Part shown: positions 41,038 to 47,413 of the stretch, in pieces
Position numbering within the stretch: the stretch's first letter is position 1
Layout: each line of letters starts with the position of its first letter
Assembly (NCBI GenBank): GCA_001874305.1
Contig: MPCU01000006.1
Span: forward strand, 186,001-250,000
DNA length: 64,000 bases
DNA from: Bacteriovorax sp. MedPE-SWde
Lineage (GTDB): Bacteria > Bdellovibrionota > Bacteriovoracia > Bacteriovoracales > Bacteriovoracaceae
Direction of reading: 5' to 3'
Translations under genes and position numbers: made by a program
Notes under the pieces: model-generated
What the model saw: only the letters and a program-made list of their open reading frames with translations
Databases searched by the model: none
Told to the model about the DNA's origin: nothing

Positions 41038-41445
41038 TTAATCTTCCATATTATCTAGACTTTCATCAACGTTGTTTAGGAAAGAACTTAACGCCTTAGG
41101 TACTCCGTCCTTCACTGCTAGTGAAGTATCTTCTTTACCTTTGTCATCAATTCTGTGTCCAAAACGTTGAGTAACATCTTCTTTTAAAACTTGTGATGGC
41201 TTAAAAGTTAAAACTCTTCTTGCAGAGATTTCCATAGCTTCACCAGTTTGTGGATTTCTACCAACTCTAGTTGCTTTGTCTCTGATTGAAAAGTTACCAA
41301 ACCCAGAGATTTTAACTTTCTCTCCACGGGCCAAAGTGTCTTTAATCACCTTAAATACTAGGTCTACAAGGTCTGCCGCTTCTTTTTTAGAAAAGCCAGC
41401 TTCTTTATAAACTCTCTCTACAATATCAGCTTTGGTTAAGCTCAT
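41038..41445 (-). CDS. ihfA: Integration host factor alpha subunit
   Basis: The DNA-bending protein is recognisable from TKADIVERVYKEAGFSKKEA, GEKVKISGFGNFSI, and the DNA-intercalating arm with Pro in GRNPQTGEAMEISARRVLTFKPS. The core is about 95 residues; the 135-residue product has an additional C-terminal segment (about residues 96-135) that is charged and ends acidic. The arm sequence favours the alpha subunit over HU. GGAGG precedes the ATG, and a promoter at 41480-41507 lies in the spacer. Confidence 0.9.
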   Translation of the reverse strand: MSLTKADIVERVYKEAGFSKKEAADLVDLVFKVIKDTLARGEKVKISGFGNFSIRDKATRVGRNPQTGEAMEISARRVLTFKPSQVLKEDVTQRFGHRIDDKGKEDTSLAVKDGVPKALSSFLNNVDESLDNMED

Positions 41446-43680: not shown

Positions 43681-45174
43681 TTACTTTCTTTTTACTGCTT
43701 TTTTCTTTGTTTTCTTTTTGGCCTTTTTTGCTAATTTGTCGGCCTTCTTCTTACCAAGCTTATCTTGCTCTTTTTCGATCTTCTTTAGTAACTTTTGTTT
43801 TTCTTTATCTCTTTTAGTTATCCAGTCAGTTAGCTTTACATCAACATCTTCTAACTCTTCTATAAGCTTCTTAGCAACAAGACGTGGACTCTTAGCAATT
43901 TTTTCATACTCGGATAGCTTCTTCTTATCTTCTTTAACCATTAGTTGACGTTTAGCAACCTCTTCCTTAGTCATTCGATAAATCGGCATATCTGCTAAGT
44001 AATCTGCATAGACATACTTCTTCTTACTTAAGTACTCAACAAATGTCTTTCTGTTCTTTGACTTCGTTGCTACTTCGTATTCTTTATTTCTAATGAACTT
44101 GATAATTTCATTATTTTGCTGAATCTTATCCTTTAAATCAACACAACGTAGCTCGTATCTTCTACGTACTACCTTTAGTCTCTCGTCAGTAAAGATTTCA
44201 ATAATAGATTCGGCCTTCTTAAAGATCCTAACCCCTCTCTCGCTAATTAGAGTATAGTTTGGAACCTGTGAAGAAGTTGCGCCCATTTCTTTTTCAACTT
44301 CTTTTACTGTTGGTTTTTCACCTTTCTTGAAAATTAGCTCAATCTTTACATCATTATCAACAGAAGAGTCTGTAAAGTCCTTAAGGAATCCACTCTCCAT
44401 GTAGTTACCGAGATAGCGATACACTTTCTTTGCATCATATCCTCTTGGTAGCTCAGTTATAAAAATACTCTCACCAATTTTTTCAAATCGCATATTAAAG
44501 AGTAGTTTTCCTTTTGGATCGATATCAATATCAAGGTCATAACCATGAACATATGGTTTTACTTTTCTCGCCTTTCCGTTCTTTATGTGAAAAATCATAG
44601 ATTTGATAATATCTCTATGATGAAAACTTGGGATACTTGAAGAGAACCCCGTTCCAATACCTTCAGCACCATTAAGTAACATAATCGGAAGCTTTGGTAG
44701 TAGCCCAACTGGCTCCATTGTTCTCTCATCATAGTTAGGAACCATTTCAACTTGGTTCATATCATCAAAGAGAATTATATCTGCAACCTTACCAAGCTTA
44801 CACTCAATATACCTTGAGGCAGCGGCTTGCGTCTCCATCCTTTCACCAAAATAACCCTTCTTATCAATAAGTGGGTAATTATTAGAGAAAGTATAATCCT
44901 GTGCCATATTTACAATCGCAGACTCTACAGAAGCAGGCCCATGAGGATGTAAAGTAAGAACCAGCCCCGTCGCAGATGAAACCTTCATCAGACCTTTTGA
45001 TTGGTTCTTCCAAAGAGTATATAAAATCCTTCTTTGTCCTGGCTTTAGCCCATCCTGTAAATAAGGAATGGCACGATCCATAAGTGTATATATTTGATAT
45101 GTTCTATATTCTTCTCTTACAATCTCATCTAATGGGATGGATTCAAGTGAATGTAAAAAGATCTCTTGTGTCAT
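43681..45174 (-). CDS. Type IIA topoisomerase A subunit, short with basic tail
   Basis: The DNA-cleaving subunit passes one duplex through another. The 497-residue product has DGLKPGQRRILYT, a LHPHGPAS block, and the catalytic Tyr122 in AAASRYIECKL. Other segments, such as NGAEGIGTGFSSSIPSF, are closer to eukaryotic and phage topoisomerase II than to GyrA or ParC. It has no C-terminal beta-pinwheel, normally about 250-300 residues, and ends in a basic tail (about residues 455-497) rich in AKKAKKK units. It follows the B subunit by 16 bases. I would call it ParC-like, without being certain of orthology. Confidence 0.85.
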   Translation of the reverse strand: MTQEIFLHSLESIPLDEIVREEYRTYQIYTLMDRAIPYLQDGLKPGQRRILYTLWKNQSKGLMKVSSATGLVLTLHPHGPASVESAIVNMAQDYTFSNNYPLIDKKGYFGERMETQAAASRYIECKLGKVADIILFDDMNQVEMVPNYDERTMEPVGLLPKLPIMLLNGAEGIGTGFSSSIPSFHHRDIIKSMIFHIKNGKARKVKPYVHGYDLDIDIDPKGKLLFNMRFEKIGESIFITELPRGYDAKKVYRYLGNYMESGFLKDFTDSSVDNDVKIELIFKKGEKPTVKEVEKEMGATSSQVPNYTLISERGVRIFKKAESIIEIFTDERLKVVRRRYELRCVDLKDKIQQNNEIIKFIRNKEYEVATKSKNRKTFVEYLSKKKYVYADYLADMPIYRMTKEEVAKRQLMVKEDKKKLSEYEKIAKSPRLVAKKLIEELEDVDVKLTDWITKRDKEKQKLLKKIEKEQDKLGKKKADKLAKKAKKKTKKKAVKRK

Positions 45175-45190
45175 GATCTAGTCCTAATCC

Positions 45191-47413
45191 TTAGTCTATA
45201 TAATTAATCATATCTGCCAATTTTCCAGAAACTTTCTTCTTGGCCTTTTTCTTTGTTTTCTTAGCAACTTTCTTGCTAGTCTTCTTAACTGGTGCCGCTT
45301 TCTTAGAGACTTTCTTGCCCGCCTTCTTCTTAGCAGAAGAAGTAGCAACTTTTTTAGCAACCTTCTTCACGACTTTCTTTTTGGCAACTTTCTTCGCCTT
45401 CTTTACAGGGGCCTTGAAATTACCTTCATCCTTACCAAGAGTTACAGAAGTTTCTTCACCTTCATTAACATCCATAAGAAGTTCTTTTCTTAAGTTAGTA
45501 TCTTTACCAAAGCAAATATTTAACATTTCCTTAGCTCTACCAGCATCGGCAGCAGTGATTTCGGTATACTTTTCTTTTGAAAGAACAAATTTCCAGGCCT
45601 CAGGAGACATTTCCCCTAACCCTTTATTTCGATGAATTTCTCTAATTTTTTCAGCCGTAGTATCTCTAAAGCCTTCAAGTTCTTTATCAGATTCAAAATA
45701 GTGTGTTTTCTTATCTGTAATCACCTCAAAGAGTGGTGCTTTGGCAATTTGAATACAGCCCATTTCAAATAACTCTGGCCAAAACTGGTAGAAGAAATTT
45801 GTTAGTAGAGTATTAATATGTCCACCATCAACATCTGAATCGGCAAGGAATACGACTTTCGAATATCTCATTTTTGCTAACTCAGCTTCTTGCCCAAGAG
45901 CAAGACCAACTGACGCCATAATATCGGAGAATTCTTGATTATTTAAAATATCCTTAATACCGGCCTGGGCAACATTCATAGGCTTACCACGAAGAGCGAT
46001 ACCACCTTGATGCAGCTTATTCCTAGCAGATCTAAGTCCACCAATTGCAGAATCCCCCTCGCAAATGAATAGCGAGCAAAGTTCTCTCTTCTTTCTTTCG
46101 TTAGCATCAAGGAGCTTTTCAACTCTTTGTCTTTTTTGCTTACGGGCAGTCTTAGCTGCATCTTTGAGATCTTGATACTTATGTCTTGATTTAGCTCTTT
46201 CTAAAATAACTTCTAAGTAATCCTTATTCTTTCTAAGGAACTTATCAACATTCTTAGACATGAACTCATCAAGTCCTTTTTCTAAGAATAGGTCTCTAAC
46301 GAGTTTTCTCTTTGTTTGGGATTCAAAACGAGGATTTGGCATCGTAATACCAAGTACAAAAGTTAGACCCATTAAAATATCATTATCAACGACTTTTACT
46401 TTTTCTTTTTTAGCAGCTCTTTCTAACTTGTCTTTAATTGAGTTAATAAAGGCCCTTCTAATCTTATCGTGGTGGAACCCACCATCATAAGTAGGAGTAG
46501 AGTTTACAAAAGAGATATACTTCTCTCTTTCTTCACTAGCTTTATGAATTGAGAAAGAAAGAGACATGTCTATCATACCCTTAACTTTCTTTTTCTTCGT
46601 ATTTATAGTCTCGTATACATAACTATAATCACCAAAGTGTTGAGCATGTAATTCATCAATTCGATGTGCTAGCTCAAACAGTCCCTTTTGGTAGTGATAC
46701 TTATCTCCGTTGAAATAGAAAGCAAGACCAGGATTATTATACGCAAGATCAATGATTCTCTTTCTAAGAAGATCCTCATCAATAATAGGATTTTTATAAA
46801 CCTCTTTTGACAAAGTAACCGATACAGTTACGCCAGAGTGACCACTAAAGGCCTTAGGCTTAGTCTTCTTAACTTTTAAAGCACCATCTATAAATGTATA
46901 TGTTTGTTCTTTCTTAGAGTTATAGTGTCTAACACTAACTTTAAACTCATCAGCAGTTAGACAAGTTGCTGCAGCACCTAGACCATTCTGCCCGAGTGTT
47001 CTGTGCAGGAAGCCCTTCTTATCTGTTTCTTCATCCTTGAACTTAGAACCTGTCCTAAACTCAGAGTAAACCTGTGGAATTTTCGCAAGAGGAAAACCAA
47101 TACCGTTATCTGAAACAGTTACTGTTTTTCCGTCTTCAGTTAGTGTCGTGTGAATCTCTGTAACGTGACCACGATAGAACTCATCAATACAGTTATCGAG
47201 AATCTCCTCAACCGCCTTACTCTTGGCCTGATGGAAATTAACAGTTTTAAACTTTACGCTATGTTCTTCATAAATATATGTATCGAGTTCTTCGATATCA
47301 TTACTTCCAAATACTAACGTAATACGATTACGACAATGCCAACGTTGATCTTTACTCTCGATGACGGCGTCCTTCGCCTTACCTTTTCTTTTGACTGACT
47401 CAATGCGTCCCAT
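45191..47413 (-). CDS. Type IIA topoisomerase B subunit with lysine-rich tail
   Basis: The ATPase subunit, 740 residues. It has GHKL motifs (EEILDNCIDEF near 70, DNGIGF near 102, GQNGLGAAAT 141-150), the QTK loop (366-368), and a TOPRIM domain with EGDSAIGG (452-459) and DSDVDGGH (525-532). Canonical GyrB/ParE have EGDSAGGS and DADVDGSH. The GQNGLGA block resembles the GRNGYGA of eukaryotic topoisomerase II. Residues 668-728 form a histone-H1-like tail of KKVAKK-type repeats. The function in decatenation or relaxation is inferred. Confidence 0.88.
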   Translation of the reverse strand: MGRIESVKRKGKAKDAVIESKDQRWHCRNRITLVFGSNDIEELDTYIYEEHSVKFKTVNFHQAKSKAVEEILDNCIDEFYRGHVTEIHTTLTEDGKTVTVSDNGIGFPLAKIPQVYSEFRTGSKFKDEETDKKGFLHRTLGQNGLGAAATCLTADEFKVSVRHYNSKKEQTYTFIDGALKVKKTKPKAFSGHSGVTVSVTLSKEVYKNPIIDEDLLRKRIIDLAYNNPGLAFYFNGDKYHYQKGLFELAHRIDELHAQHFGDYSYVYETINTKKKKVKGMIDMSLSFSIHKASEEREKYISFVNSTPTYDGGFHHDKIRRAFINSIKDKLERAAKKEKVKVVDNDILMGLTFVLGITMPNPRFESQTKRKLVRDLFLEKGLDEFMSKNVDKFLRKNKDYLEVILERAKSRHKYQDLKDAAKTARKQKRQRVEKLLDANERKKRELCSLFICEGDSAIGGLRSARNKLHQGGIALRGKPMNVAQAGIKDILNNQEFSDIMASVGLALGQEAELAKMRYSKVVFLADSDVDGGHINTLLTNFFYQFWPELFEMGCIQIAKAPLFEVITDKKTHYFESDKELEGFRDTTAEKIREIHRNKGLGEMSPEAWKFVLSKEKYTEITAADAGRAKEMLNICFGKDTNLRKELLMDVNEGEETSVTLGKDEGNFKAPVKKAKKVAKKKVVKKVAKKVATSSAKKKAGKKVSKKAAPVKKTSKKVAKKTKKKAKKKVSGKLADMINYID

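Follow-up and report, generated by a model that had tools for sequence, protein, structure and literature searches.

A two-gene type IIA topoisomerase of the Bacteriovorax group carries lysine-rich tails and may branch near the split between bacterial and phage/eukaryotic enzymes

Two neighbouring genes on the minus strand of the window (the whole stretch of 64,000 nucleotides analysed) encode a type IIA topoisomerase pair. The B subunit comes first, followed by the A subunit after a gap of 16 bp. Both open reading frames were found where the original prediction had put such a pair (43681-47413), and Pfam showed the catalytic part to be whole. The features discussed below are as follows.

45191..47413, minus strand: B subunit, 740 aa, with GHKL ATPase, transducer, TOPRIM, C-terminal part and lysine-rich tail (Pfam)
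45194..45412, minus strand: B tail, about residues 668-740, lysine-rich, predicted disordered, with the acidic tip LADMINYID at its end
43681..45174, minus strand: A subunit, 497 aa, with winged helix carrying Arg121-Tyr122, tower, C-gate coiled coil and short basic C-terminus, without pinwheel (Pfam)
43684..43812, minus strand: lysine-rich C-terminus of A, about residues 455-497
41038..41445, minus strand: IHF/HU-like DNA-binding protein, assigned from its sequence, a neighbour kept in part of the family and lying outside the enzyme

The B subunit matched HATPase_c, DNA_gyraseB and Toprim in Pfam, and DNA_gyraseB_C weakly. In the A subunit, PF00521 covered residues 34-441 of 497. Pfam found no beta-pinwheel repeats in the roughly 55 residues that remain after this match, which bears out the expectation that A has no room for a pinwheel. 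Arg121-Tyr122 of A was invariant among 14 relatives. The same was true in B of E70, N74 and D102 of the ATP site, of Lys368 of the QTK loop, and of E452, D525, D527 and D529 of TOPRIM, roles that are well established for this enzyme family. With a GHKL ATPase, a TOPRIM domain, a winged-helix catalytic tyrosine, a coiled-coil gate and intact catalytic residues, the pair qualifies as a type IIA topoisomerase.

The predicted motif GQNGLGA was present in the B subunit, and the A subunit further contained NGAEGIGTGF and SNN. SQTK had been named as a eukaryotic or phage marker; the QTK loop is common to type IIA enzymes in general, so we rejected it as a marker of lineage. The two-gene organisation does not mark the pair as bacterial either, since the large phages L118 and L056 have an identical B-A layout. 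At B residues 26-37 (HCRNRITLVFGS) the RPGMYIG motif of the ATPase N-terminus was decayed, with the catalytic residues of the ATP site retained, and the motif was likewise decayed in the jumbo-phage relatives (HVRLRTQIYLGN). The predicted structures of the subunits reached a mean pLDDT of 65-68, a moderate quality, and Foldseek on these models did not discriminate among the candidate relatives.

The original prediction had called for a check of the canonical genes. In addition to the pair, the host genome (3.76 Mb) has one canonical gyrA and one canonical gyrB as separate genes, and one type IA enzyme (TopA); neither ParC/ParE nor a second type IA enzyme was found in it. A family profile run on 241 Bdellovibrionota genomes detected the A subunit in about 79 of the 83 genomes of its own family (counted by eye from the table) and in 0 of 158 genomes from elsewhere in the phylum. 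The four family genomes without a match were 85-91% complete, and one of them (G019) keeps a fragment. The nearest relatives belonged to Bacteriovorax sp. DB6_IX, whose A subunit is 90% identical, and to Halobacteriovorax, which makes the host a predatory member of the Bacteriovorax group. A prokaryote-wide scan of one genome per species, with patterns reaching close relatives only, found none outside the Bacteriovorax group. In most other Bdellovibrionota families gyrase is seemingly the sole type IIA topoisomerase, GyrA standing alone, and one family of the phylum (f2, L026) has a ParC-like protein of 778 aa.

On one flank of the pair, genes for ArgRS, GNAT and START-like proteins were present almost throughout the family, and on the other flank IHF-like, MerR-like and prenyl-synthase genes in part of it (names assigned by eye). 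The conserved gene order indicates that the locus is old and vertically inherited. A recent mobile origin was rejected because synteny is conserved and the GC content is ordinary.

Scores against known families gave no clear affiliation. The best NCBIfam match to any model was 188 of 654 bits for A and 304 of 740 bits for B, and the pair scored far below all GyrA, ParC, GyrB and ParE cut-offs. It thus falls short of the curated gyrase cut-offs, and A lacks the pinwheel of GyrA. The PDB matches of A were yeast Top2 (132 bits), T6 (122) and ParC (121), all within about 15 bits; with such near ties, we set the best PDB match aside as a sole guide. The pair also matched PHROG 543 and 551 with 361 and 475 bits. 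Bacterial ParE/ParC and gyrase controls matched these equally well or better, so we dropped the PHROG matches as proof of phage origin.

Since these scores were ambiguous, we built trees under a site-heterogeneous mixture model from 12-13 family members together with large phages, viral contigs, bacterial gyrases and topo IV, and eukaryotic Top2. The trees are unrooted, hold one to three eukaryotic rows and leave out Bacteroidota, Chlamydia and spirochaete ParC as well as giant-virus Top2. Bacteroidota ParC was not found in the plasmid collection. The eukaryotic reference was a yeast TOP2 sequence; over the aligned part compared with PDB chain 4gfh it differed by a single substitution.

The A tree, over 443 columns, recovered the Bacteriovorax-group family as monophyletic (100/100). 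A split of 100/100 set it apart from every bacterial GyrA/ParC and from the phage enzymes of bacterial-like type, and the phage/eukaryote clade excluded it (98/93). Over 597 columns, the tree of B separated the family from the bacterial side with 100/100 and joined it weakly to a jumbo-phage group (66/25); an alternative order with respect to the two phage groups was not rejected (p 0.41). When A and B were joined, the phage/eukaryote clade excluding the family received 97/96, and with wider sampling the family was set apart from the bacterial side with 100/100 and from the phage/eukaryote side with 95/79. The three-way split was retained when the alignment was cut to its slowest 65% and to its slowest 40% of sites, and on slow sites the split from the bacterial side had support of 99-100. 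Judged from these alignments, both subunits look like a third deep lineage, attached to the stem that links the bacterial clade with the T4-phage/eukaryote clade. Firm nesting inside ordinary ParC/ParE, which would have spoken against the original prediction, was not obtained in the A, B or joined trees. The family did not nest with eukaryotic Top2 in the A or the B tree either, and it has two genes, not a single fused chain.

With about 1.2-1.3 changes per site the family branch is long, and long-branch effects may still bear on the deep placement. Such a branch would be expected if the pair were an ordinary, fast-evolving ParC/ParE that lost its pinwheel and that long-branch attraction drew towards the phage/eukaryote enzymes. 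A short bacterial topo IV A-subunit model does exist (PRK09630, 479 aa), and forcing B to be the sister of Bacteroidota ParE cost 34 log units with p 0.055, which is the weakest point of our case. However, grouping the family with gammaproteobacterial ParC cost 78 log units and was rejected (p 1e-7). The full support for the split from bacteria in A, B and joined trees, its persistence on slow sites and the low scores with every NCBIfam ParC/ParE model also speak against this origin, which we regard as improbable.

We then compared the columns that are differentially conserved between the bacterial and the phage/eukaryote enzymes. The family was phage/eukaryote-like in 11 of these columns, bacterial-like in 11 and neither in one, and the two sides were interspersed within single domains. 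The NN after AQD[YF]TF[SA] (A 98-99) was seen in every sampled family member and, with one exception, in every phage/eukaryote row, but in no row of the bacterial side. At B 143, the N of GQNG is likewise of the phage/eukaryote type, and HPHG and KGLGEM are bacterial-type. Residues of both kinds do lie side by side, as had been noticed. The bacterial-like half of the columns is what a derived ParC/ParE would show, but the NN and the N of GQNG are specific phage/eukaryote residues and not random changes.

The term "mosaic", which the original prediction had used, suggests recombination, and this was not supported. Trees built domain by domain showed no clean conflict, although the transducer and tower parts leaned to jumbo phages. 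Given the interspersed residues and the unrooted tree, branching near the split fits better than domain swapping.

One close known system is the topo II of T4-type and jumbo phages (gp39/gp60 + gp52; PHROG 543/551). It too has separate B and A subunits, an A without pinwheel (435-490 aa in the phages), and the NN and GxNG residues, and its large-phage members share about 31-35% identity with our pair. The best relatives outside the family were viral contigs (237 bits for A, 353 for B), compared with 165 and 252 bits for the best bacterial sequences. The ancestor of the family might thus have captured a T4-like or jumbo-phage enzyme, which became a decatenase and gained its basic tails later. 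The shared architecture and gene order, the leaning of the B tree and of the transducer and tower parts to jumbo phages, and the viral best matches all point this way. However, the family lay outside the phage/eukaryote clade in the A and joined trees, and half of its diagnostic residues are bacterial-like. Unlike the phage enzymes, the pair is chromosomal, vertically inherited and basic-tailed. Across a long stretch, even the closest phage sequences were only 31-35% identical. Patterns specific to the family found no relative of A in the viral contigs, and with patterns common to family and phages no long match there exceeded 35% identity. We consider phage capture possible but less likely than not. 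In one viral contig (L110, 4997-10192) B was divided between two ORFs of 608 and 242 aa that are separated by intervening DNA, which may reflect an insertion or a T4-like split gene.

The pair resembles bacterial topo IV in having two subunits beside gyrase and likely does the same decatenation job; it differs from it in lying outside the ParC/ParE clade, in lacking the pinwheel and in its scores far under the NCBIfam cut-offs. With eukaryotic Top2 it shares the NGAEGIGTG and SNN motifs, the missing pinwheel and a basic disordered C-terminal tail. The eukaryotic enzyme is one chain and has a tail of unrelated sequence, and the pair does not nest with it.

Lysine-rich C-terminal tails had been predicted on both subunits, and the counts agree. 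Of the 60 C-terminal residues, 25 are K/R in A and 24 are K in B; these counts top all 62 genes of the window, the next being 13. In the models the B tail had a pLDDT below 50 from residue 632 onward, that is, it is predicted to be disordered, and the A tail continued the C-gate helix. A search for other K-rich tails of the same kind in the host genome gave none at E 0.01, a result in which composition correction could hide some. The tip of the B tail (45194-45220; also L004-L009, L051, L055, L149) followed LADM[IV][DN]Y[ILMV]D within the genus and its near relatives, and L[LV]GHLEY in another group. This conserved tip is perhaps a docking or self-clamping peptide.

Among 51 loci of relatives the B tail was longer than 35 aa in 39 (up to 140 aa), 11-35 aa long in seven and absent in five. 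Every A subunit with a readable end had a basic C-terminus of 21-52 residues with 9-27 K/R. The pinwheel was absent in all 51, with or without a B tail. The tails are therefore common yet not fixed, and the absence of the pinwheel does not track them.

The original prediction had proposed that the tails may replace the pinwheel as DNA-binding or wrapping elements. On this reading they would wrap or bend DNA and so let the enzyme supercoil or select crossings. A pinwheel-less enzyme tailed on both subunits invites this reading, as does the basic C-terminus that every A with a readable end keeps. However, the B tail is missing in five and short in seven of the 51 relatives, phage enzymes manage with neither pinwheel nor tails, and we know of no case of chiral wrapping by disordered or helical basic tails. 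The proposal is weak, and we think it very improbable.

Other enzymes offer closer parallels for tail action. In Streptomyces TopA, lysine repeats stabilise the DNA complex and raise processivity; they have been likened to histone H1 and are followed by acidic residues (PMC7398561). Actinobacterial TopA is a type IA and otherwise unrelated enzyme, and its repeats at the end of the chain are likely a parallel for how the tails act. In eukaryotic Top2, DNA condensation and duplex bridging are driven by a disordered tail that T4 topo II lacks (PMC9674351). By analogy with these two enzymes, the tails probably hold or bridge DNA. Their main effect could be to condense the enzyme with DNA, by phase separation and duplex bridging as in eukaryotic Top2, as opposed to processivity on a single duplex. 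The lysine-rich composition, the predicted disorder of the B tail and the Top2 precedent fit with this, but many relatives have short or missing tails, and we find condensation as the main role unlikely. Most likely, to go by these analogues, the tails hold DNA electrostatically, for processivity or duplex pairing, as a lineage-specific tuning that is not obligatory.

The catalytic parts suggest how the enzyme would work. The B subunit would capture a DNA duplex in its ATP-closed gate, a second duplex would be cut by Tyr122 of A with the TOPRIM metal site of B, and the captured duplex would leave through the coiled-coil gate of A. Because there is no pinwheel, no chiral wrapping is expected, and the enzyme would relax and decatenate DNA rather than supercoil it, like T4 and eukaryotic topo II. 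Since gyrase and a single TopA were the only other topoisomerases found, the pair is likely the main decatenase. We infer from its sequence that it would fill the topo IV role by ATP-driven strand passage. The possible link of the enzyme to growth as filaments with several chromosomes, which the original prediction had suggested, is plausible.

GyrA Ser83 and Asp87 are quinolone-binding positions. In our A subunit residues 79-85 read GPASVES, which appears to put Ala81 and Ser85 at these positions (alignment by eye) and predicts natural quinolone insensitivity of the enzyme. In the literature on Halobacteriovorax and Bacteriovorax topoisomerases we found no published description of the enzyme, and an antibiotic-resistance study there discusses gyrA only.

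Taken as a whole, the pair is probably a second type IIA enzyme of B2A2 form, from a lineage near the split between the bacterial and the T4-phage/eukaryotic enzymes, vertically inherited, likely a decatenase and equipped with DNA-holding tails. The usual classification of type IIA topoisomerases has bacterial gyrase and topo IV on one side and a phage, virus and eukaryote group on the other, and Guglielmini et al. 2022 (Virus Evolution) reportedly describe the bacterial enzymes as one group. Tentatively, and at not quite even chances, we propose that the pair represents a previously unrecognised third deep lineage near this split, cellular and not viral, which serves as the decatenase of one predator family.

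Placed on the stem that joins both groups, a cellular enzyme breaks a long branch and is relevant to the proposal that eukaryotic Top2 came from viruses. If it is a third cellular lineage, it would be a key outgroup for where eukaryotic Top2 originated. Since relatives with and without a B tail exist, the family also provides a natural test of the roles of the pinwheel and the basic tails. For the predators of the Bacteriovorax group themselves, it would mean that their chromosome-separating enzyme differs from that of model bacteria.
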